DNA of 42,433 nt, taken from contig JASAON010001503.1 in assembly GCA_030849065.1 (NCBI GenBank), positions 1-42,433 of the forward strand, given 5' to 3'. This DNA comes from Jaenimonas drosophilae. Its lineage: Eukaryota > Euglenozoa > Kinetoplastea > Trypanosomatida > Trypanosomatidae. Shown here piece after piece: positions 792 through 19,174 of the stretch; positions within the stretch are counted from its first letter, which is position 1, and each line of letters opens with the position of its first letter. The notes beneath the pieces were generated by a model. It ran no database searches. It saw only the letters and a program-made list of their open reading frames with translations, and had not been told where the DNA came from. Made by a program: the position numbers and the translations under genes.

Positions 792-1772
792 ATGGATGAC
801 CACGTCACACCTCACCTCCACATTGGTGGGGCACGCCGACAACCAGTAGGCCGGGCCACTTTTGTTGCCTCCGACTCTGACTCCTCCTTCACGGAAGAGG
901 ATGACCGTGCGAGCGTGGAAGTCTCCGGCAACCCCACCAACACCGCGCAACGTCAGTCATCCTTCGCAAAACAAGCGTCCACCGCATCCATGATTGGGCA
1001 GCCACGCACTAACAGGCGTGGCATAGGAAAAGAAGATGACGACGTAGCGCAGTCACCACCCATGCCTGGCCACGACACTGTCAAGGTTGAGGCGTCTCAG
1101 AGTGGCTCCGTCAAGCCACGTGCGGTGAGGCTGTGCAGCACAGAGGAGGTGCACCCGATGTCTGCCTTGCGTAATGGGCATTCGGCTTCCACCGGCTCGA
1201 TGGTCCTCGGCGGATCAACCGTCGCTCCGCGGGATGGATCATTGATGCGTGAGGGGAACAGCCGTAGTGCTACTGCAGTGGACCGTGTTGCGGCTGCACA
1301 CCCGTCGTCTTCGTCCGTTGAGCCACTGACTTCGTTTGAGGAGGTTCAGCGCTCCGCGAATGCAGTGCAACGTCCTCCGGAGCCGCAAGAGGAGGCCATT
1401 GTCTTCCGCCATGGAGCACCAACCTTTTCTGGTGATGTGGTGGTCCCCTGCTTTGAGGCTGGGGATGGTGTGCTGTACCTCCTCGCTGACCGCGCCACTG
1501 GACGGCGTGGCTACTACAATGACAGCCGTGATGATGCGATGGAGGTGAGGTTTGTGTTGAGCGCCAAGAGCCGCATCTCCCCACTGGGGAAGGTACGCCT
1601 GACCCTGGATGAGGCACGTGGCCGCTTCTCTGGCGAGGTTGTCGTTCCGCCACATTCGACGGAAATGGTGTGGGTGGGTCATGTGGAGGGTGAGCAAATG
1701 AAGTACTGCCTGCACCACCCCACAACCAGTCATATCCGCCACACCCTGAATTCTACGGAATCTCTTCACTGA
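792..1772 (+). CDS. Soluble DUF1935-domain protein with L-x-S-x-E-E motifs
   Basis: This 326-residue protein has no signal peptide or membrane segment. Residues 1-200 are Ser/Thr/Arg-rich and probably disordered. They include two copies of the window's recurring motif, LCSTEEVHP (about 114-122) and EPLTSFEEV (about 177-185). Residues about 214-306 form a DUF1935 domain: a CFE start, GVLYLLAD, the YYND signature, VRFVLSAKSRISPLG and a GHVEGEQMKY end. DUF1935 is known from kinetoplastid calpain-like and small membrane- or cytoskeleton-associated proteins; its biochemical role is unclear. There is no calpain protease domain. The linker motif matches the EEV flavour of the receptor gene that follows, so I infer a functional pair. 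The ATG at 792 is the first in frame. The family call is confident; the function is unknown. Confidence 0.85.
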   Translation: MDDHVTPHLHIGGARRQPVGRATFVASDSDSSFTEEDDRASVEVSGNPTNTAQRQSSFAKQASTASMIGQPRTNRRGIGKEDDDVAQSPPMPGHDTVKVEASQSGSVKPRAVRLCSTEEVHPMSALRNGHSASTGSMVLGGSTVAPRDGSLMREGNSRSATAVDRVAAAHPSSSSVEPLTSFEEVQRSANAVQRPPEPQEEAIVFRHGAPTFSGDVVVPCFEAGDGVLYLLADRATGRRGYYNDSRDDAMEVRFVLSAKSRISPLGKVRLTLDEARGRFSGEVVVPPHSTEMVWVGHVEGEQMKYCLHHPTTSHIRHTLNSTESLH

Positions 1773-2058
1773 TTGAATGCCTTCGTGACTCATTGGAAAG
1801 AGTACCCATCATACCCTCACATAAATGAACGTATATCCATGAACCTTTGTGCCACTGGACCACAACTACATGTAAGAGTTGCATCAGTGTTCTTTTTCAT
1901 GGCTCAAGCCCTTGTTGTTGACTTAACCCTATGGCTCTCTGTTGATCTTGGCGCAGGTATGAGACGAAGTGGTGTTTGGTTGCGTTCCCTGTAGTGTACC
2001 TTGTGGTGTTGGTTCGATTGTTGCTTGTTGTGCCTGAGTATGATGCTGTGAAGAGGTC

Positions 2059-2292
2059 ATGATGATCAGGAACAACAGGTTGTTGTTTTTTTCTCGTATC
2101 GCCTCCCTTTGTTTTACCGTAAATGTTCTTTGTTTTCCGTGGAGTTCAGCAGTTCCACCTCAACTACCCATTATCACTGTTGCTTCAATTTCTTCTGACG
2201 GTGGACGTGCTGTGTGCTCCACCTTGGCAATTAGGCGTCGGTCGTGTAAGCGAATGTTCGGGTGGGGCATTTATTCCACCTTGGCAATGTGA
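2059..2292 (+). pseudogene. Possible relic of a receptor ectodomain N-terminus
   Basis: A 77-codon frame starts with a basic then hydrophobic leader and continues PQLPIITVASISSDGGRAVC. The downstream receptor begins its mature part with QPTITVVTLHDGNMAC. The DNA also matches at 15 of 16 bases (CCCATTATCACTGTTG here, CCCACTATCACTGTTG in the receptor). The frame then ends, with no cyclase, linker or DUF1935 region following. It could be a truncated paralogue left by unequal exchange or a chance frame in a spacer. The resemblance is short, so confidence is low. Confidence 0.22.
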
Positions 2293-2516
2293 AACCATTC
2301 CATGCCCCTTTTCATCTTCTCTTCAATCTCCACATTCATTCATAGAGACCCGTTGTGCTAGATCACCTTCTCGCTCTTTTTTTTTGTTTCTTCCACGGGT
2401 GGAAGTGTTCTTCATTGCGTAAGTGTACGGGGTTGGTATACTAAATCATTATTGATATCCATTGCGTGCGTCATAGCACAAGGATTCACTCGCGCAATCT
2501 CCATTGGCTTCTCCGA

Positions 2517-2559
2517 CCCCCTCTCTCTTTCTTACTGGGGGCCTGACTTCATTCTGTAG
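2517..2559 (+). promoter_or_regulatory. Candidate spliced-leader acceptor for the first receptor gene
   Basis: A C/T-rich run (CCCCCTCTCTCTTTCTTACT) and a second short T-rich stretch end in CTGTAG, with the AG at 2558-2559. It lies five bases before the ATG at 2565, so the leader would be very short unless an upstream AG is used. Confidence 0.4.
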
Positions 2560-2564
2560 AGAAG

Positions 2565-5500
2565 ATGGCACCCTCGTCGTCATGGAGGGCCAACGTCGTC
2601 GGTTTGGTCGTACTTACCTGGTTGATGGTGGTGCACGCGCAACCCACTATCACTGTTGTTACACTTCACGACGGTAACATGGCCTGTCTGAACTCACCCA
2701 TTTCGGGGGTCCTCACGGAGATGACCTCGGACGTGGAGTTAAAGAAGCTACTTACGCAATCGTTTGTTTCCAGTACTGCGACTGACGCAGCCGCGTGCGA
2801 CAGCTGGCAGCACAACGCTAGTGATTCACACACCTCTATTGTGAGTGGTGTCATTCCAGATTCCTTCGCAATCTCAAACAATCTCATTGTGATGGACCCC
2901 ATCAATTTAACCTCAGGTCTGCACCAATCCAACAACAACTTCATCTACCTCTTTGCTGTTCTGGAGCAGCAGCTGCACATGGCCGCTTACTACTGCAAGA
3001 ATGAGCACATCAATGCCGCAGATATCCGTATACTCATCCGCAGCAGCAGCAACAGTGGTGCCATCAGTGCTGCTGCTAAAGCTGCCTTCGCGTACTACGG
3101 CATTGCGCTTCCGTCGTCATCGCTGGTTGCATCGTCTGCCACCATCACCGATGAGCTGCTGACCACCGGCTTCACCTTTGTGGTGGGTCTTGCCACGTCT
3201 GACGTTGCCCCACTTGTGTCCTTCCTGGATACCCAAATCGCTGCCACGGTGATGGTGGACTTCNACCCAAATCGCTGCCACGGTGATGGTGGACTTCGAC
3301 GACTTGACGCTTCTCTACGACACCTTTGTGACGTCCTTTGGCACGGTGGTGAAGCCCTCCATGTCACGGCTTCTCTACGCCACCAACCTGCCTCGCTGGA
3401 CGAACGCATCAATACCAAACACGATGGTTGCCGTTCCTTCAAGCACGACCGGCGCTGGGGATGATGTGATGGAGATGTTCTTCGCTCACATGCCACATGT
3501 GTATCACTCCCCAGCAGGTCTTCGGGCATTCACAATGATGCTCTTTGCAGATGCCGTCGTGGAAGCTGCTGGAGCACACAACACAAGTGACGTGATTAAC
3601 TTTATTTATAAGTCAGGTGGCTTCGATGTTGCTGGGCAGCACTACGGTACGTTTTCCACAGCCTGTGCAGCCCCTGTTGCTCAAGGTGCTACTTGTGCCA
3701 AAAATGTTGGTGCGATGCAACTCAGGATGTTTTCCTATGCGGGTGCTGTGGTGGGTGGTGTGTTCCATGCCAACACCCCTGTTGGTGTGCCCAGTGCTGA
3801 TGCCCCGGATGAAGTGAACTCCGACAAGAACATATTCTTGTGGGCTATTCTGGGAGTTATTGGCTTGATGCTTGTGCTTCTTGTGATACTCCTCTTCATG
3901 TGCTGCTGCTACGGTCAAGAGGACGACAAGGATGAGGTGACGGTGGTTGTGGTTCAGAAGCCCAACGGAGATGATGAGGGTGTTCTACAGGGCTTGATGC
4001 GTGGGCTCATTGCCCAGGATGGATGCAAGACGGATGAATCTGGCGCACTGTGGGTCCTGTTGGCTGCCTCTCCCTTGGCAGCCATCAAATTTGCGGAGAA
4101 GCTACGTACATCAGTGGCAGAGGTGGTGTCGGAGTCCATCCATCCCGTCATGGTGGGCATTCACACGGGTCCGGTGAGTGGTGACGCGGCTCCACCCGCG
4201 GGGATGTCAAAGGACTTTGCCGGTTGTGCGGAGGTCGTGGCTGTGGCCCAGTCCACTGCATCCATGTGTGATGGCACCCAATTTCTTGTTACCTCTGAAA
4301 CTCACGGCCTCCTCACTCCTGGTGAGTGCAAGATGTATGGAATAGTGCACCACCGCAGCTGCCGCATCTCTGGCACAACGATGGAGATTTACCAACTTTG
4401 TGGAACCGATGAACCGGCCAAGGACAATGAAGATCCGCTGACGCGCCATACCGACGTGGTGGACGCGGACGGCAACACGGAATCCATGGATGTGGATAGG
4501 CACCTGCCACCGCCCCTCTCCAGTGAGGAGGTACGTGTGCGTGGAGAGGCGCAATCTACCATGGTCATGGTTCCTGAGCCCCTGACGACAGTGGAGGTGA
4601 TGCCACGTCGCGGGGAAGATGGTGCAGTGGTCGAGGAGGTAGTGCCGTTGCAGAGCTGGGAGAGCGTGGCAGCTGCGGCACCACCCCCTGTGAAGATTGT
4701 GGAGCCACTTCAAAGTTTTGAGGAGATTAAACCTGGTGGCGAGCGGAGAGTGATGGCAGCCCCCATTGACGACGGCAGGCCACCCACACCGCTCTGCAGC
4801 TTCGAAGTGGTGAAGCCCGACGGTCGGCGCACACTGGTGTCTGAGAAGGTGGAGGAAGGCCCTATGGCAGCACTTCACAGCTACGAGGAGGTCAAGCCCA
4901 CGGGAGAGCGTTACGCACATGCGCCTGCCGTCAAAGCAAACGAGGATGCCACGGTTGTGCCGGCTCTTCACAGCTATGAGGAGGTCAAGCCACGAACTTC
5001 CGAGGGAGCTCTCGTGAAGAAAGTAGAAGAAGCACTACCAGTACCATCAGCAGATCCTGAGGAGATCGTTCCTCTGGAGAGCTTCGAGGAGGTGCTTCCC
5101 CGCTCCGTTGTGCGTGAGGACGCATCTGCACGTGCGCCATCAAGGACGGATGAAGCAGCGCGACTTGCGTCGTCCATCTCAAGAACCGTCGCAGTGGATG
5201 AGCCATCGACCCCACTGGAGAGCTGGGAGTGTGTTCCGTCCAGCCATGTATCACGCAGACGCGTCACCTACGTCAGCGCTGGTGCCCAGACTGAAGAGGG
5301 CATGTACGTACCTCCAGCCTCCACACGCGAGCTTCAAAGTGGTGTCATGGCGGAACGGCGAGATGCTCGAGAAGAAGCCGCGACTGTGGGCGCTGCCCAC
5401 AACGAACACACGTCGGGGGTGTCGGGGCAAGATGAGGTGGCCAACACAGCTTCTCCAGAGAAGGTCCAGACTAGGGTGGTGCCTGATGTGGCCAGTAACG

Positions 5501-6690
5501 TCATGGAGGAAGAGACGGAGGCGAAACACATTCCTGAAGAGCCGGTGGAACAGCTTCATGATAAGGAATCTCAACGTGCTAGCGTACACAGTGAGCGAGA
5601 CCCGACAGAACCTGAAGGGATGCCCACGGAGGACGCCGCCGCTCAGTCCGTCACGCACCCCCCAGCGGAGGATGCAGCACCGGAACTTGATGTGGTGGAG
5701 GCACCTCTCAACCAAGGAGCTCACACATCCCCTGAACGCTATGCTACTTCACAGGACTCCGCCCCATTCCGCGATCCAAGCTCCGCTGACGAAGCCCCTG
5801 AGGAGGAGAGTGGCACCCACGAAGAAGCTACGGCGCATGTACCTGAGCCAGTCGAGGCCCAGGTGGAAGAATGCATCGGTGAAGACGTGCACGAGCAGCC
5901 CTTCGAAGCATCTCATGAGGCCTCCATGGACCAACTCCCCGAGGAACACTCTCCGGCACGCACGGGACGCTCACACGAGGATGAACCCGCGGACGAATAT
6001 GTTGAAATTCATGCGGCTCCTGTGAAGGGGGCCGAGGAAAACCTTCTGAAGGAGGTTGTGCAGGACCACGATGATACGGAGGAGGTTCATCACAGTGCGG
6101 TGGAGGAGCCACCCGCCGAGCAGGAAAAATGTGCCACACCTTTTGCCGATGACAACGATGCCCACATGGCTCCATCCCGCAGGACCCCCGAGGTGGCGGA
6201 GGAAGATGTGGCGGCAGCACAGGCAGAAGAGCTGCGACGCATATCTGGAGGTGAAGTGGCTCCTTCTGTTCCGGCGAGCCACATGCCTCCGCGTCGGATC
6301 GCAGAGAACGCCGCACTTGTGGAACCCGCCGCTGGTCCAGCCGCCTCACCCTTTGTGCGTGGCCGGCCCACCGCCGTTGGAGATAAGATGGTTCCCTGTT
6401 TTGAGGTGGAGAATGGTCTGTTGTTCCGCATCACTGACTCCGAAAGTGGCAAGTGGGGCTTCTACAATGACACGGATGAGTACATCATGCACGTGCGCTT
6501 CTCCTTGGGCAGGAAGAGTCGTGTGGTTCCGCTTGGATCGATGGTGATCCAGGAAGACCCAGAGACGGGCCGCTTTGAAGGAGAGGTGATGCTGCACCCT
6601 GGATGCACAGAGATGGTCTTCATGGGTCATGTCAATGGCCACCGCATGCGCTACTACGCCATCCCAACCTCACGTGAGTGCCACGCCTGA
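2565..6690 (+). CDS. Receptor-like pseudo-cyclase with C-terminal DUF1935 domain (frame split by assembly N)
   Basis: As given, the frame breaks at 3264. Counting the duplicated 33 bases once (34 fewer bases with the N) gives one continuous 1363-residue protein. A signal peptide ends near VHA-Q (25/26). An ectodomain to about 410 resembles the periplasmic-binding-like ectodomain of trypanosomatid receptor adenylate cyclases. One membrane segment follows at about 411-435 (LWAILGVIGLMLVLLVILLF), then a CCC cluster. Residues about 445-603 keep the C-terminal half of a class III cyclase fold (VGIHTGPVSG, then GCAEVVAVAQSTASMCDGTQFLVT), but the metal-binding aspartate motifs are gone, so I predict no cyclase activity. 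Nine L-x-S-x-E-E-like motifs lie at about 636-880. A Glu-rich disordered linker runs to about 1250. DUF1935 at about 1262-1355 has FYND and VRFSLGRKSRVVPLG. The domain order is seen; the receptor role is inferred. Confidence 0.85.
3231..3297. other. Unmerged assembly overlap: 33-bp direct duplication around a single N
   Basis: Bases 3231-3263 and 3265-3297 are identical, with the window's only N at 3264 between them. Dropping one copy and the N removes 34 bases and restores the receptor reading frame. The merged protein then aligns through this point with the paralogue at 12113-15862 (PLVSFLD...VMVDFDDL against PLIVDFLE...VMISFDDL) with only a one-residue length difference. This fits two contigs joined without collapsing their overlap better than a biological frameshift. 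Confidence 0.9.
4504..5238 (+). repeat. Array of nine degenerate L-x-S-x-E-E motifs, EEV flavour
   Basis: Within the cytoplasmic linker of the first receptor the motif recurs at irregular spacing: LSSEEV, LTTVEVMP, LQSWESV, LQSFEEIKP, LCSFEVVKP, LHSYEEVKP twice, LESFEEVLP and LESWECVP. An aromatic residue usually sits before the acidic pair, and K/L/M-P follows. The sequence between copies is unrelated, so the motif itself appears to be what is conserved. Confidence 0.8.
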
Positions 6691-7517
6691 AACGTCTTCT
6701 TAACCATGTACGCAAGCATTCTGATATAGATTTGTTTTTCATGTCATTTTGTTTCCTGTATATGTATTCTAGCTTCAGCCCTCCTCTCTACCTCCACCTG
6801 AGTAGCCCTCGCACATCAGCGGGAGAATCTGATGAAGAGATGGGGTGCTATGATTTCTTTGTTCTTTGCCTCTCCTTGGTCATGTATATTGTGCGGCAGA
6901 CCACCACCATCAAGTTAACCACCCTCATTTTGTATGCATTCCGTGCGTGTTGGTGAATGAGTATTTGGTGTGTGGCTCCGACGCATGTTTCCAGGAGTTC
7001 TTAATCGATGCATGGGGATGAAAACGCTAACGTGTGCAACTCATCGCTCACACACCCAAGATCGCTCAACCTGCCCCATACACTAGTCATTGTAGATAGT
7101 GTGATGAGGAAGAGGGTAGCAGCACATGCTGTGTCGTAGCATGTGGTTGTTGTTGTGTTTTTTTCTTCATTCGTTCGTAAGTGTCTCACTTGACCTATTC
7201 CTCTGCCAGTGTTATGTCTGTGTTGTTTTTTTATGATTTGTGTTCTCATTTTTTCTGGTAGAGTGAATCCACATCGATGGACAATCACAACAAGTGACGG
7301 GAGTAGCCCCTGAATGCCAACGTGGAATGTGCGTGCCGCATCTCTTTGTTGTGTGTCTTTCTCTTATATTCTGTTTCTCGTCCTATACTTTCTTGCAATT
7401 CACCAGTGTTAGTACTTGTGTATCTGTGCGGTGGATGAAGGTATCCGCACAGCCAACACCTTCGCAGCCGAAAAACATCTTTGCTTCCCTGTGGTAGTGA
7501 GTAGATACGTGTACCCC
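6691..7517. other. Spacer between first receptor and second soluble gene
   Basis: The spacer is T-rich and A/T-homopolymer-rich, with no supported gene. The longest small frames are hydrophobic and cysteine-rich, as expected from T-rich sequence. The 3' part contains the candidate acceptor region of the gene starting at 7518 and a short upstream frame at 7435-7497. Confidence 0.55.
7341..7406 (+). promoter_or_regulatory. Candidate spliced-leader acceptor for the 7518 gene
   Basis: A long pyrimidine-rich tract (TCTCTTTG, then CTTTCTCTTATATTCTG and TTTCTCGTCC) ends in CACCAG, with the AG at 7405-7406. It leaves a leader of about 110 bases containing a 20-codon upstream frame (7435-7497). A weaker alternative AG at 7496-7497 would remove that frame. 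Either choice makes 7518 the first usable in-frame ATG. Confidence 0.45.
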
Positions 7518-10500
7518 ATGAACGAGGAGTACAACACGCACAATATATCCCCTGAGCGCGCTCAGCGGCGCAACAAGAAGAAGCGGAATCGCCGCCATCG
7601 TCAGCGAGAGGTGTATGTGCCACCAACACCGCTTCACAGCGAAGAACGTGTGAGTTGGTTCGATCGCGAGCCATCAACCCCGCCGGCTGCGGATGAACAT
7701 CCACGACATGCATCATTTGATGCTGCCGTTCCGGCTCTTTCGAGTGTGGAGGAGAAGCTTCATCGCCCTCACAGCGACGAGCCCGCTCAACGTAAACATC
7801 GCCATCGTCATTCGGTGGAGCCCGTAGACGCTCTCACGAGTGTGGAGGAGCGGCCGTGGCATCCGCACGTTCAGACCGCCTCCCGACGTTCATCATCACG
7901 AAAATCCTACGATGATCTCCATCAATCCATGAATTCTCTTCCACGGCCACTCACCAGCTTTGAAGAGCGCCCGCGCACCGCGATGGATGAGCGGCCGATC
8001 AGCAACGCCAGCAGAAACCGTGAGGCCCGACGCCGGCGCTCAAGCAGCATCCATCATCAGGCTCCACCTGCCCTCAGTAGCGTGGAGGAGCGACCGCCTA
8101 CGGTTCGTGATGTACGTCAACATCACCATCATCATCATGATTCAGATGAGGTTCTGAATGATGAGTATGCACCGCTCTACCTCTCCAGTGTGGAGGAGCG
8201 CGCACCACAACGGCGGCACACCTCCATCACCTCAGCGGTGCACGGCAACTCCCACGTGGAGGATGATCCTGTGCCACTGCACAGCGAGGAAGAGGTTCCG
8301 CGAAAGCGCCGCAAGCGTGCTCGTCGGAGGCGTAGCACAGCCAGCCGGCCCGAAGAGGAGGAGCGCCAGCAGCATGATGAGGTGATGGAGCCGTATGCGC
8401 GGCAACGTGAGGTGGTGGATGAGGAGAGAGCGGCAGCAGTACCTCCTGCGGATGACTTGGGAATGCAGGAGCTCGGCATCCTTCTCGCCCCACGGAGCCA
8501 CAACATCGTTGCGCACTCCACGCATCTACGCGACCGTGTGGCCTCTCAGCGGGAGCTCTCCTGTGAGATGGAGCGAAGCGCCAGCTTTGAAGCCAGCGAG
8601 GAGGAGGCAAGCGTCGAGGAGCGCCGACGCAGCTCCTGCGCATCGCTCAACCTTCGTCGGCCATCGACGATGGTCCATGCACGCGAACGTGAGCTCTGCG
8701 ATACGCCCAAGAATACCGCGGTGCTCGAGACATCCATGATGGAGGTATTATCGGCCAATGAGCACCTGAGTTGTGGCTTATTCAGCGACCGCTCAGAAGA
8801 TGTGGAGATGGGGGATGAGCGTGAGCTCGACAACGACGATGGCGAGGATGCCCATGTTGTGGGATCCTCACGCGCCATGGAGCAAACGCCTGTGTTGCCC
8901 ATGAATGAGAGGTCTATCGTGGTGGGGGAGCAGGAGATGCGTACCACCTCACCCGAGGCGAAGGAGATGATGGCCGATGCCATGATGGAGGCACACCATC
9001 ATGAAGAGGATGAACGTGCTGCACCAAAGGAGGCAGCCTTTGACGGAGAATCGTCGGTTAATATGGAGCAGGACCAGAGCATCTTGTGCGATCCTCGTGA
9101 ATCCATGATGTTTCAGAGTCTGGAGGAGAAGGCAGCTACGGAACAAGTTGCAGAGGAGGCCAACAATTTGGCGGAGCCCACTCGGCTGGAGCAGGATGAG
9201 GAGGCGGAGATGGAATCCACCACGGAGGCCGCCGACGACGTTGGCGAGTCATGTGTCCTGCGCCAGACTCCCCAACCTCCTCGCCAGAGTATCTGTGAGT
9301 ATACCGAAGTGGCGGAGATGGCCAGCAACGCCCCCGAAGAACCTGCTGAGCGTGAGGATGGTGGGCAGGACGCTCCGCTCGACGAAGAAGCTCATGGCGA
9401 TGTTGATAATGATGATATGATGGAGAAGGAAGAGGCCTACGTCGCTCATGAAGAGGGGGTGGATCTCAGTAGCAACGCTGCACCAGAGGCAGAAGAGCGC
9501 GAGACGACGGTGCAGCGCACTCCATCTCCCGTGGCGGTACATCCGGAGGATGCAGATGTGGCCCAAAGTGATGAGGTGGAGCTTCGTAGCAACGGTGCTG
9601 CCGAGGCAGAAGAGCATGTGGCAGATGCGTTGCGCGCCTCTCCCGAATACCCGTCTGAGAGCACCATCGAGGAGATGGATGAGGTGGTATTGCCACACAA
9701 CCCTACGGTGGAGCCGCGTGTGGAGCTCATTGGTGGCGAAGAAAACATTGACGATGATATACGCTCACCGCCCCGCTCGGCCGATGTGGCCGTGGATCGC
9801 GCGGCGAGCTACGAGCTCGATGCCACTGATGTGGAGGAAGCACCGATGCTCCACGGGGCGGCGTTGCGTAGCTCACCCATTCTTCCCATGTCAGTGGAGT
9901 GTGCGACGGCGGAGGAGTGCGTAGATGAGGAGGCGGAGGAAGATGTTCTCCCAGAGCGCTGCACCACTGCACCAACAGCTGAGGCCAGGCCACCAACTCC
10001 CATCGCGGAAGGAGATCATGATGATGTGGAGGAGAATGATGATGTAGCGGAGGAAGACGATGGCGTGCCGACTCCCGACGATGGCGCGGAGGGTTTTGGG
10101 CAGACGATGCCCTACCCAGAAGATGTGGAGGAGAAGCCCGTTGAGGAGCAGCTCCCCACGCTCTATTCAACGGATGAGATGCCTCCACGAGAGGTTGTGC
10201 CCCCACAGCGTGTGCCATCCGCCTCCATCACTTCCTCCGCCGCTCTTCAACGCTACATGACGCCCGTGAGCTTCGCGCACGGCTACCCCGCCATGATGGG
10301 TGATGGCATCCGCAAGGTGCTCGACGTTGGGGATGGAGCTCTCTATCGCATCATGGATAGCCAAACAAGCACCTGGGCATACTACAACGACAGTGCGCAC
10401 TACACCATGCACGTACGCTTCTCTCTCGGTAGCCGGAGTGTGGTGGAGCCCCTCGGCAACACCATGATGGTGATGGATCCCTCCACGGGCCGCTTCAACG

Positions 10501-11189
10501 GCGGCATGCTCGTCTATCCGGGTGAAACGCAATTGATGCTGACGGGCAACGTGAAGGGCCTCACAGCACGCTACAACGCCTGGGATGAGCGGGCGCTCTC
10601 TCGTCGCGGTCTCTCCCGTAGCCCATCCATCGCCACCTCAGCCCTCCCCAGCCCACGGGCCTACAGCGAATCCATCACCACACCGCGGGCCTTGATGAGT
10701 GAAGGGGGGCGCGTCTCACCGCCACGCAACACACGCTACGTTGCCCCACCACGACGCCTCATTCATCCACAAGATGGCGCCGACTCCCCCGCACAAGAGG
10801 ACCAGCCCTCGCAACACCAACAACAACAGCAACAACAACCAGAGCAGCAGCAGCTCTCCTTGGCGGCTCATGCAGCGCCGAAGCCACCCGTGGATCCCAT
10901 CAGCAGGGAGGTGTGCTTCGAGGTGGAGTCGGGCTCACTCTTCCGCATCACAGACAACAACACGGGCAATCACTCCTTCTACAATGATTCAGATGAGTGC
11001 GTCATGCGTGTTCGCTTCTCACTAGGCCGTAAGAGCAAAGTCACCGCCCTCGGCCGAACCATCTTGGAAACCGACCCGGTGAGTGGGAAGCTGGAAGGAC
11101 GCCTCTACGTCCCGCCACGCTCAACGGAGCTCTTCCTCGCTGGCCACATTGAAGGCCAGCGTCTGCAGTACAACGCCATCACCATTTAG
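7518..11189 (+). CDS. Soluble protein with L-x-S-x-E-E motifs and two DUF1935 domains
   Basis: The reading frame is open from 7416, but the first in-frame ATG is at 7518, giving 1223 residues. There is no signal peptide or membrane segment. A basic N-terminus (RRNKKKRNRRHRQR) is followed by seven motif copies (LHSEERV, LSSVEEK, LTSVEERP, LTSFEERP, LSSVEERP, LSSVEERA, LHSEEEVP) among basic and His-rich stretches. A very acidic Glu/Asp/Met-rich region runs to about residue 900. DUF1935 copy 1 (bases about 10270-10583) has GALYRIMD, YYNDS and VRFSLGSRSVVEPLG. After a Ser/Pro- and Gln-rich spacer, copy 2 (about 10909-11180) has SLFRITD, FYNDSDE and VRFSLGRKSKVTALG. The length and acidic linker suggest an extended scaffold; this is inference. 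The VEER motif flavour matches the receptor downstream, not the one upstream. Confidence 0.85.
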   Translation: MNEEYNTHNISPERAQRRNKKKRNRRHRQREVYVPPTPLHSEERVSWFDREPSTPPAADEHPRHASFDAAVPALSSVEEKLHRPHSDEPAQRKHRHRHSVEPVDALTSVEERPWHPHVQTASRRSSSRKSYDDLHQSMNSLPRPLTSFEERPRTAMDERPISNASRNREARRRRSSSIHHQAPPALSSVEERPPTVRDVRQHHHHHHDSDEVLNDEYAPLYLSSVEERAPQRRHTSITSAVHGNSHVEDDPVPLHSEEEVPRKRRKRARRRRSTASRPEEEERQQHDEVMEPYARQREVVDEERAAAVPPADDLGMQELGILLAPRSHNIVAHSTHLRDRVASQRELSCEMERSASFEASEEEASVEERRRSSCASLNLRRPSTMVHARERELCDTPKNTAVLETSMMEVLSANEHLSCGLFSDRSEDVEMGDERELDNDDGEDAHVVGSSRAMEQTPVLPMNERSIVVGEQEMRTTSPEAKEMMADAMMEAHHHEEDERAAPKEAAFDGESSVNMEQDQSILCDPRESMMFQSLEEKAATEQVAEEANNLAEPTRLEQDEEAEMESTTEAADDVGESCVLRQTPQPPRQSICEYTEVAEMASNAPEEPAEREDGGQDAPLDEEAHGDVDNDDMMEKEEAYVAHEEGVDLSSNAAPEAEERETTVQRTPSPVAVHPEDADVAQSDEVELRSNGAAEAEEHVADALRASPEYPSESTIEEMDEVVLPHNPTVEPRVELIGGEENIDDDIRSPPRSADVAVDRAASYELDATDVEEAPMLHGAALRSSPILPMSVECATAEECVDEEAEEDVLPERCTTAPTAEARPPTPIAEGDHDDVEENDDVAEEDDGVPTPDDGAEGFGQTMPYPEDVEEKPVEEQLPTLYSTDEMPPREVVPPQRVPSASITSSAALQRYMTPVSFAHGYPAMMGDGIRKVLDVGDGALYRIMDSQTSTWAYYNDSAHYTMHVRFSLGSRSVVEPLGNTMMVMDPSTGRFNGGMLVYPGETQLMLTGNVKGLTARYNAWDERALSRRGLSRSPSIATSALPSPRAYSESITTPRALMSEGGRVSPPRNTRYVAPPRRLIHPQDGADSPAQEDQPSQHQQQQQQQPEQQQLSLAAHAAPKPPVDPISREVCFEVESGSLFRITDNNTGNHSFYNDSDECVMRVRFSLGRKSKVTALGRTILETDPVSGKLEGRLYVPPRSTELFLAGHIEGQRLQYNAITI
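7629..8303 (+). repeat. Array of seven L-x-S-x-E-E motifs, VEER flavour
   Basis: Seven copies occur in the N-terminal third of the soluble double-DUF1935 protein. Most read L-[ST]-S-V-E-E-[RK], commonly followed by P within a few residues. The V-E-E-R form is shared with the receptor at 12113-15862 and differs from the aromatic-E-E-V form of the first receptor. Confidence 0.8.
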
Positions 11190-12112
11190 GCACGAACACA
11201 ACACAACATGATCATGTGTGTGTGTGTGTTGTGGCACTGGAAGAGTCCTCTTCTTTCCTCCAGTGAGTAGCACCAGCTCTCTCAGCTTTTGTATGATTTT
11301 TTTTTATTTTTTTTGTAAATGCGATGTGGTGACCTCCATGTGGTAAGCGTGTGGAGCAGGGCCGCGAAGGTTTGTGGGCTCATGTATATACAAGCATACA
11401 AAATGTGGCGATGCACGGGCGTATGGAGGAAGATCAGCACGCACGCACGCACACACACACTTCTGGTCTAGGCAATCATGAAGTGATACCATGTGAAGTG
11501 CATACCACCGATGTGGGGCACCATTAACCATTAAACAGAAAACAGCGCACGCTACAACGCGTGGCCTCCCTATCACGTGGGGGCCCCCCACACACCCTTC
11601 ACGGCGAGCCCATCACCAACGCCACCAACTCAGCCACGAACATCTCCTTGTTGGTCAGGGATGTTGGCCGTAGACGTACTAATGTTGGGGTACTTTCTTG
11701 GCTCACTTCACCCTTTTGTTGTTCTTCACTGTTTAATGGCTGAGAATCTCATGCATCGTGTGTTTGTGTGGCTGCACCACCACCCATGGATACTCTGTAC
11801 GCATCATCACCATCCATCTCACTCAATCTTCTTTTGCTGTTTTTAGTTGGTTTTCATACACGACTGACACCTACATCTACATTTTTTTTTTGGCACACAC
11901 GCATACATTTATTATAGATCGGCATACACCAAACACAAGAGATTATCTTCTTCTTCTTGGACCGTACGTGTACGCACACATACACACTTAACACGACCCA
12001 GCATACCCGCGATTTTGAGGGCAACGGATTCCAGACACAGATATAGAACATACACGTACACACACAACAACAAAAACACAACTACTATTATAGATTCTTC
12101 GAACAATTTCTC
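11190..12112. other. Spacer between second soluble gene and second receptor gene
   Basis: This 0.9-kb spacer has GT/CA repeats (about 11216-11230, 11437-11460) and T-runs (11298-11312, 11881-11890). No full gene is supported. At 11547-11564 there is an 18-base stretch differing at one base from the end of the first DUF1935 domain of the preceding gene (10566-10583), in the same coding sense (ARYNAW). This may be a domain relic or chance. Candidate acceptors for the next gene are CCCAG near 12000 and TTATAG near 12092. Confidence 0.5.
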
Positions 12113-15100
12113 ATGATGTGGAATTCTTCGCTGCCAAGACATCGTCAGCGTGTTGGCACGATGCCATGGTTCCTCATGATGGTGGTGACGGCGTACCTGC
12201 TGTGCTCCACGCTTGTTGTGGCTGCGGATGAAATTGTGGTTGGTGTTGTGGATATCACGTCCACCACCATCTCCAACTACCTAAGTGATCAAACGATGGG
12301 TGTGGCCCAGGCGGTGGGCAGCACGCCCTCCCTTCGCTCGCTGATGAGCGCAGACTACACAGCCAAGAACATCACCATGACGGCTGAGGATGAAGAGATG
12401 GCGAATGTGTTTCTCACTGAAGTGCAGGATAATGAGTCCATCTCCTTCATGGAGGCATCGGTGCCTGGGAATCTCAGCGCGGGCACCTCTCTCTTCGTTG
12501 TGGATCCCATCAACATAACGACCGCAAGCCTCCCGAGCGGCTCCTCATTCATGTTGTACTTCTTCCCCACCTTACCCGAGGAGTTTTATGTGTTTGGCTA
12601 CTACTTCGCAGCCAACAAGATACCAGGCAGCAGCATCAACGTAGTACTCCGCCAGGACGAGACGACGTCGATGATATACAACCCCATCTTCAATGCCCTA
12701 CGCACCGCGTTATCCGTCTTTCGTGTGCAGGGTGCGGCATACATCACGAGCATGGCATCGCTGAGCAGCCTTCTCAAGCCCAGTGGCACCACAATTCTCA
12801 TCAACACCTCCGCCGAGGATGTACCGCTCATTGTGGATTTTCTCGAAGCACACGACGATGCCGTGGTGATGATCAGCTTCGATGATCTCACGAAGCACTT
12901 CAATGACTATCGCACCTCATTCGGCACCGCCTATGTTCCCGCGATGGAACGCCTCCTCTTCACCACCAACCTGCCGCCGTGGAATGAAAGCACAACGGGC
13001 AGCGGAGGGCCAGCCATGGCAATGGCCACCACAACAACAACTAGCAACAAGAAGGACATCAGCACCTACATGAATCTCTTCTATAAGGATGTGGCGGACA
13101 CCTTCCACAGTCCTGCTGGCCTACGTGCCTACTTCACGGCGCTCATTATGAATGAGGTGGCCACAACGGCTGCCAACACCACAGCCCCCGCCATGCAGCA
13201 GGCCATTTACCGCGCACATACAGTGAAGATTGGAAACATCAGCTTCGGCCCCTACTCCTCAGTCTGTGCCGCACCTACCCCGGACGTGAATGCGTGCACC
13301 GTCAACCGTGGTACCACCAACTTGATGTTGTGGCCCTACGCAAGTATGGCGTTGGGCAGAGGTGTTGGCCGAGGTCCACTCACGGGCTACGTCGTGGCGC
13401 CCTACTACACCGTCGATGGCAGCGGAAACGGCTTCTACGGCGGAGGTGTTGCGGCGGGCCAAGGATCATCCAGCTCCGACAACGCCATCTTGTGGGCAAT
13501 TCTTGCCATTATTGGAGTGATGTTGTTGCTGCTGTTGCTGCTGCTGCTTCTGTGCTGCTGCTGTGGAGACTTGGGTGTGGTGTGCTGCGCGTGTTGCCGT
13601 GGCCACAAGGGCAGCGAGCTCACTGTACTCCATGTGGCATTTGTTGGCGAACGCCATCGTGTGGAAGTGGATGAAGGTATCGCCTCCTACCGTCGTGATG
13701 TGCATCGTGTGTTGGAGCATCACCGCTGTCGCGAGGTGGAGGAAACACGTTTTGGCTTTATTGTGGTGCCACCAACGGCCCTGAAGGCTGTGGAGATGGC
13801 GAGCGATTTGCAGGAGCAGTGGCAGCCACGGAGACGTGAGGAGCGCTACATCTCCTACCGCATTGGCATGCACTCCGGCCCAAGAGACCCCATTGACCCG
13901 GAATATCGCCAGCATCATCATCATCCACGCAAGGAAGGTGTGTTGGCCTACGCAGAGACTGTGGCACGTGTGGCTGCTCGTACTGCCAACCTGGGTGATG
14001 GAGCGGAGGCACTCCTCACGGAGAATACGCAGAGCCATCTCAGCCCGATGGATTGCCGCCACTTTGGGGTGATGCACAAGGGCCGCTACGGCTACCACAT
14101 GGATGGAACGGAGACGGAGATGGAGGTCTACGAGCTCACGTGTTGTGGATCATCCACGAACGCCTCTCCGCTGGCGGCGGCCGATGATGAGCATGAAGGC
14201 TCCCGGAGTGTGTTGCCCAAGGAGGTATCTGAGCTCCAGACGTACACCTCGTCCTCCTCCGCTTCACCACACAGCCGCCCGGTGAGCTCCGACGCTGCTG
14301 GCGCGATGCGCTCCGATGAAGGGGAACGCCAGGTGGAGATGCCACTTCATCGGCAAGATGCAATCCACGAATCATTTCCGGTGCGCGAGTACACGTCGGA
14401 GCAGCACGCCCAACGTGAGCAGCCGCAGGATTCGCCACGCTACATGTTTGTGGAGCCTCTTCACAGCGTTGAGGAGCGACCGCATCAGCCCTACATCACC
14501 CGCGATGCGGCACCCGCTACAGAGTACTACTGCCGCCACAACAACCATGAAGAAGATGTGGAGGCTATCCGAGAGCGGGAGCTCCCGCACGATGATACCC
14601 ACGTCATTCATCATCACCATGAGCAAGTCGCGCCTCTCCACAGCGTGGAGGAGCGGGCCCATCAAAAGCGCTCCATTGAGGATCCACACGCCACCAACAA
14701 AAACAACACCGTCCCGCCACTTCACCTTCATGATACGACGCTGCATCAGCACGAGGGCATGTCCTACATCTCCCCACCTTTTGCAGATACGATGATTTAT
14801 ACGGCACGAGGAGAGCGGTGTGTGGAGCCACCCGCCTCCGTCCGTGCAGCTCCGCAACACGTCTATCTCAGCAACAACCACTCCGCCGAGTACTACCGCA
14901 GCAGCTCCTCACCCTCTCCCTCTCCGGTCTACGAGAGCGCCTCACGTGAGCGCTGCATCGTACGCACAGCCCCACCGGAGGAGCCCCTCTTCTATCGCCA
15001 CGAAGAGGTGAAGGAGCATGCAGAACACAGGGAAGCAGTGCGCGAGGAGCCCGCACCGGTCATGGAAGATGTTGGTGAGGCTCGAGCTCCATCCACACTA

Positions 15101-15862
15101 ACCATGGATGGCACCCCACACAATCAGTACCGCTCACTGCGCTCATCGATCGTCTCTCCTGCGGCCCCGCGCCACGACTCCAGCGATGAGCGCTTCTTTC
15201 ATCCGCCGCCGCCATCTGCAGAGAAGCGTCGCGATGCACGTGAGGATCGCGTGGTGATTGAGCAAAGTAGCTCACCCCGCCCCACTCCCGCACATGGCAC
15301 AGATGCCAACGAGCCACATCAGCCATCGCCACCGACGCCCACACGCACCGGCATCATGCATATTGTGATGGAGAACCGTCAGAGCCAGCCACGCCCTTCC
15401 GCCTCTCCCGACTTACCAAGCCAGTGGAGCTCACTTCCTCGGGAAGAGAGCCCGACATCTCCGCAACACACAGCCCCAGCCACAACCACGCCGCCACTAC
15501 CTGCTGCACCCACGCACTATCGCAGAGGCGGGCCATCCTTTCATGGCAGCCGCATCGTCTCATGCTTCGAGGTGCCCAACGATGGTGCGCTGTATCGCAT
15601 CACCGACACCTCCACCGGCAAGTGGGCCTTCTACAATGATTCTACGGCCTACCGCATGCACGTACACTTCAGCCTAGGCAAGAAGAGCCGCGTGGCACCT
15701 CTCGGGCACACAGTGATGCATGAAAACCCAGAAACAGGGCTGTTGGAAGGCCATCTCTATGTGGAGCCTGGCACGACGGAGATGTTGTGTGTTGGCAATG
15801 TGGTGGGGCACAAGATGCGCTACTACGCACGGCCATGCGGTGAGCGGAGGCGCAGCGACTGA
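12113..15862 (+). CDS. Receptor-like pseudo-cyclase with C-terminal DUF1935 domain
   Basis: The 1249-residue protein parallels the receptor at 2565-6690. A basic N-terminus precedes a hydrophobic signal sequence (about 17-38; a start at Met17, base 12161, is also possible). The ectodomain (about 39-455) shares VDPIN, SFDDLT, TSFGT and HSPAGLRA with its paralogue. The membrane segment (about 458-482) ends in ten leucines and then CCCC and CCACC. Residues about 500-680 look like a class III cyclase domain: YRIGMHSGP, then YAETVARVAARTANLGDGAEALLT. The expected FTDI-type aspartate is replaced in HVAFVG, and the second aspartate (GDSF in active enzymes) reads RFGF, so both metal ligands seem lost. 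Two LHSVEER motifs follow in a disordered linker. DUF1935 occupies about 1144-1240 (GALYRITD, FYNDS, SLGKKSRVAPLG). Sensing at a membrane is inferred; ligand and output are unknown. Confidence 0.87.
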   Translation: MMWNSSLPRHRQRVGTMPWFLMMVVTAYLLCSTLVVAADEIVVGVVDITSTTISNYLSDQTMGVAQAVGSTPSLRSLMSADYTAKNITMTAEDEEMANVFLTEVQDNESISFMEASVPGNLSAGTSLFVVDPINITTASLPSGSSFMLYFFPTLPEEFYVFGYYFAANKIPGSSINVVLRQDETTSMIYNPIFNALRTALSVFRVQGAAYITSMASLSSLLKPSGTTILINTSAEDVPLIVDFLEAHDDAVVMISFDDLTKHFNDYRTSFGTAYVPAMERLLFTTNLPPWNESTTGSGGPAMAMATTTTTSNKKDISTYMNLFYKDVADTFHSPAGLRAYFTALIMNEVATTAANTTAPAMQQAIYRAHTVKIGNISFGPYSSVCAAPTPDVNACTVNRGTTNLMLWPYASMALGRGVGRGPLTGYVVAPYYTVDGSGNGFYGGGVAAGQGSSSSDNAILWAILAIIGVMLLLLLLLLLLCCCCGDLGVVCCACCRGHKGSELTVLHVAFVGERHRVEVDEGIASYRRDVHRVLEHHRCREVEETRFGFIVVPPTALKAVEMASDLQEQWQPRRREERYISYRIGMHSGPRDPIDPEYRQHHHHPRKEGVLAYAETVARVAARTANLGDGAEALLTENTQSHLSPMDCRHFGVMHKGRYGYHMDGTETEMEVYELTCCGSSTNASPLAAADDEHEGSRSVLPKEVSELQTYTSSSSASPHSRPVSSDAAGAMRSDEGERQVEMPLHRQDAIHESFPVREYTSEQHAQREQPQDSPRYMFVEPLHSVEERPHQPYITRDAAPATEYYCRHNNHEEDVEAIRERELPHDDTHVIHHHHEQVAPLHSVEERAHQKRSIEDPHATNKNNTVPPLHLHDTTLHQHEGMSYISPPFADTMIYTARGERCVEPPASVRAAPQHVYLSNNHSAEYYRSSSSPSPSPVYESASRERCIVRTAPPEEPLFYRHEEVKEHAEHREAVREEPAPVMEDVGEARAPSTLTMDGTPHNQYRSLRSSIVSPAAPRHDSSDERFFHPPPPSAEKRRDAREDRVVIEQSSSPRPTPAHGTDANEPHQPSPPTPTRTGIMHIVMENRQSQPRPSASPDLPSQWSSLPREESPTSPQHTAPATTTPPLPAAPTHYRRGGPSFHGSRIVSCFEVPNDGALYRITDTSTGKWAFYNDSTAYRMHVHFSLGKKSRVAPLGHTVMHENPETGLLEGHLYVEPGTTEMLCVGNVVGHKMRYYARPCGERRRSD
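13520..13565 (+). repeat. TTG/CTG trinucleotide run coding for poly-Leu
   Basis: A slippage-prone run of TTG, CTG and related triplets encodes the leucine run at the cytoplasmic half of the receptor's membrane segment and runs into the cysteine codons. Triplet expansion is a likely reason this helix is almost pure leucine, unlike the mixed composition in the paralogue at about 3835-3900. Confidence 0.6.
14453..14671 (+). repeat. Two L-x-S-x-E-E motifs, VEER flavour
   Basis: The second receptor carries two near-identical copies, EPLHSVEERPHQ and APLHSVEERAHQ, about 60 residues apart. Both match the VEER flavour of the soluble protein just upstream. Confidence 0.75.
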
Positions 15863-16486: not shown

Positions 16487-19174
16487 ATGCTCAAGCACGG
16501 CCTCTGCCGAACTATGCGGCGGCATTCAATCAGTAGCGCGTACATCTTCTCTATTGCGGCAGGAAGTGGTGCAATCCGTCTCGTCCACAGCCCCGCTGAT
16601 GTTGGCGTGTTGGAGAAGAAGGTTGTTTCTGCTCCGGACAACGCCATCGACTTCACGCGCTTGCGTGCGTGGTGGCGCCCAGATACCTCCACGTTGCTCA
16701 ATGGGAGCCAACTCTCCACCTCCTTCCGCTCCGCGCTTCTTCGTGCATCGGGCGGGCCCAACAAGAACAATAACAGCGGGAAAAACAACAAGAAGGATGA
16801 AAATGGCGGAGATGGCGAGAACGAAGGTGATGATGATGCCCCAGAGGCGTGGATCGTTCCCCGCACCTGCCTCTTCGTTGTGTCGGTGTTGCTGATGAGT
16901 TTCTTGCTGTGGAAAATGGCCCAGCCACGTGGGGTTCATACAGGGTGGGCCTCCATGCTCCAACATGCGGGTGAGATTGAGCTCATCAAGCTCTACGAAC
17001 ACTACGCGCAGGTGTACGCGACGGACCGCAAAGTACATTTGGGTCTTGTGAGCGACGCCGACACGCAGCAGCACCTGGATCAGCTGAGTGATGCGCGGAT
17101 GAAGGCGGTGGAGAAGGCCAAGCAGGAGAGAGCGGAGCTGCTCGCTCAAAAGGCCAAACAACCGCAGCCAGCAAGCACAGACGCCGCGGCCAAGGGAACG
17201 GAGCAGAAGCCTGCAGTTGTGGAGGAGGAGGTGCTGCCAGAGATTAGTGAGGCGGAGCTGCAGGTGATGCTCGCTGGTCGGCCCATGGCGGAGTCGGCGC
17301 TCTACGGCCTTGGCGTCTTTGCCTGGGTTGTCCCTTTCGTCTTCTTCCCCGTCTTCGTGATGCTCCTCTCGCAGTACATTGGCAAGTCGTTGAGCTACGC
17401 CGTGGATTCCACCAAGGGCAAGACCAAGGCGAAGGAGATGATCTTCAAGGTGGAGCGCGCGTGTGGCACCAAATTCAGAGACATCGCGGGCATGAAGGAA
17501 CCAAAGAAGGAGATCACGGAGATTGTGGACTTCCTGCGCCACCCGGAGCGCTACACGAAGCTCGGGGCCAAAATCCCCACCGGCGCGCTCTTATTGGGCC
17601 CACCAGGTACTGGCAAGACGCTTCTCGCCAAGGCGGTGGCGGGGGAGAGTGATGTTGCCTTCATCCCCGTTTGCGGGTCGGACTTCGTGGAGCTCTACGT
17701 GGGCATGGGTGCCCTCCGCGTGCGGCAACTCTTCAAGGTGGCCAAGAAGCAGCGCTGCATCATCTACATTGATGAGATCGATGCCATTGGTCTGAAACGT
17801 CAGGGCTCTGGACACGGTGAGAAGCAAGAGCAGGAGCAAACGCTCAATGAGCTCCTCACGCAGCTGGATGGCTTCAAGACGGGAAAACGAGGGGAGGTGA
17901 TGGTGCTGGCGTCGAGCAACGTGGCGCAGGAGGCCTTGGATCCCGCCCTCATCCGCCCGGGCCGCTTCGATCGCATCATTCATGTGGATACCCCGGTAAT
18001 TAGCGAGCGCATCGATATCTTCAAGGTGCATCTCAGCAAGCTGAAGCTGACGGAGCAAGCGAGCTCTGTGGAGGAGGAGGCCAAGGAAGCGGAAGCCACG
18101 GACAAGACAGAGAAGGAGGAAGAGGAAGAGGAGGTGTTGGTGGCAACAAGCAACGCCACAACTCCTGCCGCCACTGCCACTCCCGTTGCTGGTGCCGAGA
18201 CCAGCACCCAAGAAGCAGCAACGGCAACAACATCAGCCACCTCCTCCGTAGATGCAGCCTCACCCACAACCAAGGACGCTCCCACCTCCGACGAGACGGC
18301 CGTTGTTGTGAGCACACTCACCGACCCCGCTGATGCGGTTGATCCGGCGGACTACCACTTTGATTTTCACTCGCTCTTGGCCAACAAGTCCGAGACGGAA
18401 CGCGCGCTCATTGACGCCTACGCCGACCGCATGAGCAATCTGTGCCCTGGTTTTGTTGGCGCCGACATCGCCAACGTGTGCAACGAGGGCGCCATCCTCG
18501 CCGCACGCGAAGATGCCAGCCACGTCCACATCCATCATCTCGAGCGCTCCATTGACCGTGTGTTGGCAGGCATCGAGCACCGCAGTCGGGCCATGTCGGA
18601 CTTTGAGAAGAATGTCGTGGCACACCATGAGGCGGGCCATGCTGTGGCGGGTTGGTTCCTCAGCCGCGCAGACCCGCTCATGAAGGTATCCATCGTCCCA
18701 CGCGGGGGCAGTGCGCTCGGCTATGCGCAGTATCTCCCGTCTGAAAACCGCAATCGCACCGCGCAGGAGATCAAAGACTCCATCGCAGTTACTCTGGGCG
18801 GTCGCATCGCGGAGAAGATCTTCTTTGACCACCTCAGCACCGGTGCAAGTGATGATCTCCGCAAGGTGGGCCGCATGGCCTACGAGTACGTGGCCTCCTT
18901 CTACCCTGGCTCCGTCTACCCAGCACCGGGAAGCAGCCACACACGTTATGTGAAGCCGTTTGGTGAGCGGAGGTCCAACCTCTTTGATCAACGCGCAAAG
19001 CAGCTCGTGGATGAGGTGTACCAGGAGACCTACGCACTGCTCCTCTCCCACAAGAAGGATATGGAGATGTTGGCAGCCCACCTCCTGAAGCACGAGCTCC
19101 TCACGTACCAGGATGTGGTGAAGTACCTCGGCGCCCGAAAAGACCGCCCCACGGACCGCAAGAAGACGGTGTAG
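16487..19174 (+). CDS. Mitochondrial m-AAA (FtsH/AFG3-like) ATP-dependent zinc metalloprotease
   Basis: This 895-residue protein starts at the ATG after the acceptor and opens with a basic, Ser-rich presequence ([16 protein letters not shown]), as expected for mitochondrial import. Two membrane segments lie at about 123-144 and 273-299. The AAA module has Walker A GPPGTGKT (371-378), pore loop [14 protein letters not shown] (about 400-413), Walker [10 protein letters not shown] (about 424-432) and the arginine-finger segment RPGRFDR (about 490-496). The M41 protease has HEAGH (714-718) and the distal zinc aspartate in GASDDLRK (about 790). m-AAA proteases degrade and process inner-membrane proteins from the matrix side. 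Unusual is about 105 residues of Glu- then Ala/Thr-rich sequence (about 525-625) inserted in the AAA lid, where relatives have a short loop. All catalytic residues are present. Confidence 0.95.

Follow-up and report, generated by a model that had tools for sequence, protein, structure and literature searches.

Gene content of the window

The analysed window, a 42,433-nucleotide stretch of contig C212 from Jaenimonas drosophilae, encodes two degenerate receptors, each consisting of a flytrap ectodomain, a transmembrane (TM) helix, a pseudo-cyclase, a disordered linker, and a DUF1935 domain, together with two soluble proteins composed of the same tail parts. The genome (18.8 Mb) is that of a trypanosomatid, and all four predicted genes were confirmed at the following coordinates.

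792..1772, + strand: P0001, soluble (326 aa); linker motif in a disordered N-terminus, DUF1935 at the C-terminus
1404..1706, + strand: DUF1935 of P0001
2565..3464, + strand: 5' piece of receptor R1; hydrophobic N-terminus and first part of the flytrap ectodomain (PF25493, E 8.5e-31, residues 42-234)
3231..3297, no strand: single N (3264) flanked by a perfect 33-bp duplicate; probable scaffold join
3286..6690, + strand: 3' piece of R1; flytrap remainder, TM helix, pseudo-cyclase, motif-rich linker, DUF1935
to about 3744, + strand: end of the R1 flytrap
about 3847-3903, + strand: R1 transmembrane helix (limits rounded)
about 3928-4410, + strand: R1 pseudo-cyclase (limits rounded)
about 4471-6351, + strand: R1 motif-rich linker (limits rounded)
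4870-4892, 4963-4985, 5071-5093, + strand: three R1 linker motif copies from the genome-wide codon-pattern scan (further copies by protein regex)
6352..6666, + strand: DUF1935 of R1
7518..11189, + strand: P0004, soluble (1223 aa); motif repeats in the N-terminal part, a disordered acidic middle, and two DUF1935 domains
7830-8296, + strand: P0004 motif repeats, among others
10272..10580, + strand: first DUF1935 of P0004
10908..11180, + strand: second DUF1935 of P0004
12113..15862, + strand: receptor R2 (P0005), intact open reading frame, 1249 aa
12368..13342, + strand: R2 flytrap ectodomain (PF25493)
13499..13555, + strand: R2 transmembrane helix, followed by a Cys cluster
13601..14146, + strand: R2 pseudo-cyclase homology domain (model residues 497-678)
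14456-14478, 14633-14655, + strand: two R2 linker motif copies
15518..15835, + strand: DUF1935 of R2

The gene originally predicted at 2565-6690 is present but is not a single reading frame. Its two pieces overlap in different frames around the N at 3264; the 33 bases to the left of this N are identical to the 33 to its right, and the frame of the 5' piece is lost after it. The break is probably a contig join, that is, an assembly artefact, and the two pieces were analysed separately with no frame restoration. Single Ns also occur in contigs C222 and C79, there without a duplicate of this type. A scan for one spliced-leader pattern yielded 0 matches.

Domain architecture and predicted folds

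All four proteins matched the DUF1935 profile PF09149 above its curated cut-off (E-values: P0001, 3.7e-21; R1, 1.8e-27; P0004, 1.3e-46; R2, 2.6e-27), with the fold checked on P0001 only. The expectation of one DUF1935 per gene held for P0001, R1, and R2, but P0004 carries two. In the predicted structure of P0001, pLDDT was 92-97 over most of DUF1935 and low elsewhere, the motif region was modelled as a low-confidence helix, and Foldseek matched the model to 1r75 (E 1.1e-9) and to SMP-1 (2fe0, E 2.0e-9). The same model also showed a weak Foldseek match to a VAP MSP domain (E 0.07).

Both receptors contain the PF25493 flytrap followed by one strong hydropathy-called TM segment, as do receptor adenylate cyclases (RACs); in the predicted structure of R2, the TM helix spans residues 454-484. 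An N-terminal hydrophobic segment also exceeded the threshold in R2, and the N-terminus of R1 is hydrophobic by eye only. No TM segment was called in P0001 or P0004, in agreement with the proposed alternation of soluble and membrane forms. The TM segment lies at residue 463 in R2 versus 830-888 in the receptors on C201, C274, and C368, and PF25495, which together with PF25493 makes up a two-part ectodomain, had no listed match in P0002, P0003, or P0005 at E up to 1. The calpain-like peptidase domain CysPc (PF00648) was likewise not listed for P0001-P0005 at E up to 1.

Profile searches, the check suggested with the original prediction, thus placed PF09149 and PF25493 but not the cyclase profile PF00211, which scored under its cut-off in R1 (16.5 bits vs 21.9, E 0.0065) and was not listed for R2. 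The predicted fold of the R2 pseudo-cyclase region is a cyclase fold.

Loss of catalytic residues

We scored six catalytic positions, which we take to be the two metal Asp residues, the Lys, the purine Asp, the Asn, and the Arg. R1 kept none of the six and R2 only one, the Arg, so that neither has the residues of a class III cyclase; the same-genome receptors C201 and C165 kept all six. The alignment covered neither C222:2634 nor the tails of C108 and C234, and its C347 row, which had been cut in the wrong position, was disregarded. Receptors of both the C222/C79 and the window type have a shortened, divergent cyclase domain. Judged from their sequences, R1 and R2 are catalytically degenerate members of the RAC family, with a predicted loss of cAMP synthesis. 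The proposed descent from RACs with a decayed catalytic domain agrees with these residue counts and with the predicted folds of the ectodomain and cyclase region of R2, and we regard this identity and descent as nearly certain.

Comparison with known systems

The original prediction named no described system of this architecture, and no paper describing it was found in searches of an open-access library. The annotated Leishmania mexicana protein "RAC a-like" (P0007) nevertheless carries PF25493, PF00211, and a C-terminal PF09149 in the same order, and C201 in the present genome is likewise a RAC-DUF1935 fusion with intact catalytic residues. P0007 also led us to reject a fusion unique to this genome. 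The window receptors share with P0007 the domain order and a receptor-clade DUF1935 located C-terminal to the cyclase domain (same clade, 96/94). Unlike them, the Leishmania protein retains FTDIE, KTIGD, YDYYG, and NIAAR, so that its catalytic residues look intact; it also lacks the strict linker motif and has a longer ectodomain, with PF25493 at 480-784. Its nearest counterpart here looks to be C201, rather than the window genes.

With the Trypanosoma and Leishmania RACs GRESAG4, ESAG4, and rac-A/B, the window receptors share the flytrap ectodomain, a single TM helix, and the class III cyclase fold, but they have lost the catalytic residues, have a shorter ectodomain, and have gained a long linker and DUF1935. 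Among the 30 PF25493-bearing matches listed (7979 candidates scored), PF09149 was also listed only for P0007. Whole P0005 had no relative at E <= 0.001 among the roughly 8000 scored candidates sharing most words with it, and a search with its residues 36-700 gave a single T. brucei gambiense RAC, 20% identical (roughly 8000 candidates scored); because both searches scored only roughly 8000 candidates, window-type receptors may exist elsewhere.

The soluble proteins share the DUF1935 fold (2fe0, 1r75) with SMP-1 and the small kinetoplastid calpain-related proteins (SKCRP), which are DUF1935-only proteins with an N-terminal acylation site, but they do not begin with Met-Gly, and their clade differs from that of the C170 MGCGSSNE genes. 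Calpain 1.3 of T. brucei also carries DUF1935. This protein is located at the flagellar tip with RACs (PMC9481589, PMC8141408), and the CARP3 authors report no evidence of direct interaction. In T. brucei, calpain 1.3, CARP3, and the RACs are separate proteins, whereas here DUF1935 is either fused to the receptor or encoded by a gene beside it.

A linker motif common to receptors and soluble proteins

The predicted shared linker motif was found by a strict regex in all four proteins, receptors and soluble proteins alike (one copy in P0001, five in R1, six in P0004, and two in R2), by a definition made after reading C212 and C188. Its copies include sequences of the PLHSVEER and ALHSYEEV types. 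In composition-shuffle controls, the mean count was at most 0.062, and 0 of 1000 shuffles reached the real count for any linker. The strict motif was absent from 12 hand-picked other open reading frames of the window (6127 aa), from 30 reference RACs (40198 aa), and from the linkers of C201, C274, C368, C292, and C253.

A genome-wide codon-pattern scan, which misses the copies of variant spacing on C222 and C79, returned 25 places (9 in C212, 9 in C188, and 7 elsewhere; reversed control, 10), and all 18 in C212 and C188 lie in frame within these receptor and soluble genes. A first scan, with Ser as TCN and Ala as GCN, had returned 2 places and missed these genes altogether, since Ser is here mostly AGC or AGT.

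Phylogeny and recurrence in the genome

A branch supported at 90/91 sets apart every receptor-linked and array-soluble DUF1935 included in the tree; its side comprises 28 of 49 rows, after removal of 3 short domains from 52 (C79_13739, C222_44570, and C274_56967). In the tree that includes the Leishmania protein and additionally omits the 4 longest branches, the corresponding side comprises 29 of 46 rows (96/94). The trees place the receptor-linked DUF1935s, that of Leishmania included, in one clade apart from the SMP-1/calpain DUF1935s. By this placement, the window proteins belong to a RAC-tied DUF1935 lineage; RAC a-like, whose catalytic residues look intact, is a relative.

The receptor-soluble-receptor block of the window has a paralogous copy on C188, with two full-length receptors of the window type. 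The DUF1935 of P0001 groups with C131/C201:36500 (90/85; weaker, 81/82, in the second tree) and not with P0004. Thus, the idea of a soluble-receptor pair duplicated once within the window was abandoned. A single clade of DUF1935-bearing receptors was also rejected, as this label needs 4 changes on the receptor trees; DUF1935 is missing from many dead receptors (C222, C79). Since these trees are midpoint-rooted, the pattern may reflect either loss from an ancestral tailed receptor or repeated gain.

The predicted receptor/soluble neighbourhood recurs at other loci. Among the soluble clade genes, 8 of 12 have a PF25493 match no more than 10 kb away, compared with 0 of 18 other DUF1935 genes; these counts are non-independent (C212/C188 and C222/C79 are paralogous blocks), omit C222_44570 and C274_56967, and include C131 and C354 (2 of the 12), read from partial sequence, as putatively soluble. 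In one of the 8, C222_10879, the N-terminus is hydrophobic and part of the sequence is cyclase-like, giving a strict count of 7 of 11.

Constraint on individual domains

Between C212 and C188, dN/dS was 0.084/1.363 (R1) and 0.221/1.457 (R2) for DUF1935 and 0.45/2.269 (R1) and 0.405/1.029 (R2) for the pseudo-cyclase, with dS close to or beyond saturation in several comparisons. On these values, DUF1935 is the most constrained receptor domain, with the exception of the R2 TM stretch (34 codons, 0.181/2.408), which is under tighter constraint than the R2 DUF1935. DUF1935 is conserved also in the soluble partner.

Discussion

The explanation that we modestly favour is that the window receptors are non-catalytic subunits acting through tail scaffolding. 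R1 and R2 would reside in the surface, probably flagellar, membrane; a ligand bound to the flytrap would act through the helix on the pseudo-cyclase, which would serve as a dimerisation module, and the output would pass through the tail, where DUF1935 and the repeated motif would form a docking scaffold. The soluble tail-only proteins may join the receptor tails or compete with them. On whether scaffolding is the main output, we remain nearly evenly divided.

Regulation in trans of active RACs is a strong rival, although we consider it somewhat unlikely. The dead cyclase domains would pair with active RACs and tune cAMP in a dominant-negative or allosteric manner, and the DUF1935 tail would serve only to direct the receptor to the correct membrane domain. 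Class III cyclases function as dimers (PMC6027212), Leishmania rac-B1 has been reported as a negative regulator of rac-A (review, PMC4413820), RACs with intact residues (C201, C165) exist in the same genome, and the pseudo-cyclase retains the cyclase fold with dN below dS. However, this domain is shortened and diverged, and DUF1935 is more constrained.

It is improbable that the ectodomains alone matter, in adhesion, ligand scavenging, or antigenic display, with vestigial cytoplasmic parts. PF25493 has expanded to 94 matches on 46 contigs (fragments included), and in many receptors all cytoplasmic parts are degenerate, as a surface repertoire or decoy would predict; yet among the domains of the compared receptors DUF1935 evolves most slowly, it is also conserved in the soluble partner, and the soluble tail-only genes would be left without a role. 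Pseudogenes or misassembly, which the broken R1 and the single Ns in C222 and C79 might suggest, can hardly explain the locus, because R2, P0001, and P0004 are long intact reading frames, dN is below dS, and the C188 copy with its full-length receptors largely refutes it.

What looks new is a derived branch of dead, shortened receptors with repeated motifs and tail-only partners. A broader and more doubtful proposal is that DUF1935 has long been an integral part of trypanosomatid RAC complexes and has here become the main output, such that dead receptors signal without cAMP through a DUF1935-motif scaffold common to soluble partners. If this is true, free DUF1935 proteins such as T. brucei calpain 1.3 may be direct RAC partners that fulfil in trans the role of the DUF1935 fused in cis in this genome and in Leishmania RAC a-like.

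Trypanosomatid receptor cyclases are leading candidates for surface sensors, and calpain-like proteins have repeatedly been found beside RACs. A genome in which the receptor is fused to DUF1935, the cyclase is dead, and DUF1935 is conserved makes the question of a second output through DUF1935 testable. The fused Leishmania RAC a-like gene offers a laboratory handle, as may the three genes also named "a-like" RAC in the laboratory model Crithidia fasciculata (PMC11520290), which are candidates by name. The locus gives a hint of receptor signalling that is independent of the usual small messenger.

The DUF1935 array and its linker motif

As the original prediction had proposed, DUF1935 (PF09149) was matched in each of four neighboring genes, which alternate between soluble and membrane forms.

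792-1772, + strand: P0001, soluble protein; no transmembrane (TM) segment called; one DUF1935
2565-6690, + strand: R1, receptor; one TM segment after the ectodomain; flytrap ectodomain (PF25493) and DUF1935
7518-11189, + strand: P0004, soluble protein; no TM segment called; two DUF1935 copies
12113-15862, + strand: R2, receptor; one TM segment after the ectodomain; PF25493 and DUF1935

The proposed cyclase decay was likewise borne out: catalytic residues are lost in the receptors, and the Pfam scan matched the cyclase domain PF00211 among the four proteins only in R1, under the cut-off. The R1 reading is broken by a single N at 3264 within a perfect 33-bp duplicate, most simply an unresolved contig join, and was left unrepaired.

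The predicted shared linker motif, [PA]Lx[ST](x)EE, commonly with V or R next and a Pro after that, was defined after inspection of C212 (the window, C212:1-42433) and C188. Strict matches were found in P0001 (1), R1 (5), P0004 (6), and R2 (2), in the C188 receptors (6 and 1), and in the soluble proteins of C222 (3) and C79 (2). None occurred in the related proteins of C201, C274, C368 (two), C292 (two), and C253, in the tested C188 soluble fragment, or in C222 frame 8365-11265. A further 12 ORFs of the window and a reference set of 30 receptor adenylate cyclases (RACs) also had none. Looser variants were present in some proteins lacking a strict copy, and the C188 soluble gene has three in-frame copies 5' of the tested fragment (by hand arithmetic). 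A first genome-wide codon pattern matched no window or C188 gene; a codon-pattern scan returned 25 places, 18 in C212 and C188 and 7 elsewhere, versus 10 for the reversed control. SxEE also fits a CK2 site.

Directly downstream of the array lies an AAA + M41 (FtsH-like) protease (16487-19174); according to a review, a metalloprotease, possibly its counterpart, flanks the Leishmania rac array (PMC4413820). A C2-domain protein (20583-21416) is overlapped by a tandem repeat (21223-21349), and four tandem amino-acid transporter genes (PF01490; 31969-41769) share the strand of the array.

Related loci in the genome

The genome (18.8 Mb in 370 contigs) yielded at least 52 DUF1935, 33 PF00211, and 25 amastin matches, with 94 PF25493 matches across 46 contigs (fragments counted). 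Its trypanothione reductase scored 974 bits against its own family model and, together with the amastin matches, marks the organism as a trypanosomatid; PDB chains 1typ, 1fea, 1tyt, and 2tpr, which we take to be Crithidia, scored best (905-898 bits), followed by groups presumed to be Leishmania (857 bits) and Trypanosoma (823-812 bits). The PF25493 count recalls the RAC expansion of T. brucei, though the reductase is nearer the Crithidia/Leishmania chains. About 80 adenylate cyclases are given for T. brucei (PMC6027212).

The receptor/DUF1935 system is real and more extensive than originally seen. Eight receptors end in DUF1935 (two in the window, two on C188, one each on C201 and C274, and two on C368), and DUF1935 frames near contig ends on C234 and C108 may be further receptor tails. 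C188 repeats the window's order of receptor, double-DUF1935 soluble protein, and receptor. Three TM-cyclase-DUF1935 proteins lack the flytrap, two on C292 (L021, 2347-7101), one of which keeps 5/6 catalytic positions, and one on C253 (L015, 5713-8007). The C222 and C79 arrays contain flytrap-TM-degenerate cyclase receptors without DUF1935 adjoining a double-DUF1935 soluble protein. C222 frame 8365-11265 (C222_10879) comprises a pseudo-cyclase (likeness judged by eye), a motif-like linker, and DUF1935 with no ectodomain, and upstream lies a tail-less receptor (5481-7418) grouping with R1-type receptors; C222:5481-11268 (L016/L017) is the receptor plan divided between two genes. Receptor and tail therefore occur fused, split, and separate.

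Of the 12 soluble genes in the receptor-linked DUF1935 clade, eight have a PF25493 match no more than 10 kb away, versus 0/18 other DUF1935 genes (Fisher p 8e-5); sequence this close to such a match makes up at most 5.4% of the genome. The counts are non-independent because the blocks on C212 and C188 are paralogs, as are those on C222 and C79. The eight include the ectodomain-less C222_10879 (7/11 excluding it), and the 12 include C131 and C354, which are presumed soluble from partial sequence.

Phylogeny and known relatives

In the maximum likelihood tree of 49/52 DUF1935 domains, a branch supported at 90/91 set 28 rows, among them all receptor-linked and array-soluble domains, apart from SMP-1-like (MGCGSSNE starts) and calpain-type domains; many forks within the 28-row clade were weakly supported. 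The domains of five long proteins encoded on C37 (L024) and C85 (L025), with one DUF1935 each and no TM called, formed a separate, strongly diverged group. The receptor tree split full-length RACs from short dead receptors at 99/98 (100/98 in a repeat). Ordinary RACs of T. brucei, T. cruzi, Leishmania, Novymonas, and this genome formed a group (96/99), which C201, a receptor with intact catalytic residues, and the Leishmania RAC a-like protein adjoined without falling within it. Roots are midpoints for drawing purposes only.

Using C201 as the query, we found 43 proteins (7979 candidates scored), 30 of them listed with PF25493. One of these 30, the annotated L. mexicana RAC a-like protein (P0007), also carried DUF1935, as a domain scan confirmed, and its catalytic motifs are intact, whereas the window receptors have lost the catalytic residues. 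Adding it to the DUF1935 tree and removing four long branches placed it inside the clade (29/46 rows, 96/94). The domain order sought in other kinetoplastids thus exists in Leishmania, and the RAC-DUF1935 fusion is already in public annotation, so the architecture is not categorically new; the claim that it was undescribed stands only in that no paper discussing the fusion was found in the literature searched. The window system is a new, derived variant. Three a-like RAC genes are reported in C. fasciculata (PMC11520290).

Constraint and possible mechanism

Between C212 and C188, dN was lower than dS in every segment compared, and DUF1935 was the most constrained domain, with a 34-codon R2 TM stretch more constrained still; the ratios are rough because several dS values are saturated.

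dN/dS between C212 and C188
DUF1935: R1 0.084/1.363; R2 0.221/1.457; P0004 first 0.212/0.893, second 0.101/0.946
R2 TM stretch: 0.181/2.408
Ectodomain: R1 (3' part) 0.529/1.385; R2 0.299/0.952
Pseudo-cyclase: R1 0.45/2.269; R2 0.405/1.029
Linker: 0.627/2.024 and 0.818/2.74

Beyond the established domains, catalytic residue loss, common tail parts, linkage, and constraint, the receptors would sit in the surface or flagellar membrane and sense ligand, the pseudo-cyclase may mediate dimerization, and output would pass through DUF1935 and the motif together with the soluble partners. In T. brucei, calpain 1.3 co-localizes with CARP3, a reported RAC binder, and is present in a RAC proximity proteome, but its authors report no evidence for a direct interaction (PMC9481589, PMC8141408). 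The strongest rival is that the window receptors regulate active RACs in trans, for which the review offers a precedent in Leishmania rac-B1 acting on rac-A (PMC4413820). With its receptors and DUF1935 partners, the window system is a good test case for the role of DUF1935 in receptor-cyclase signaling.
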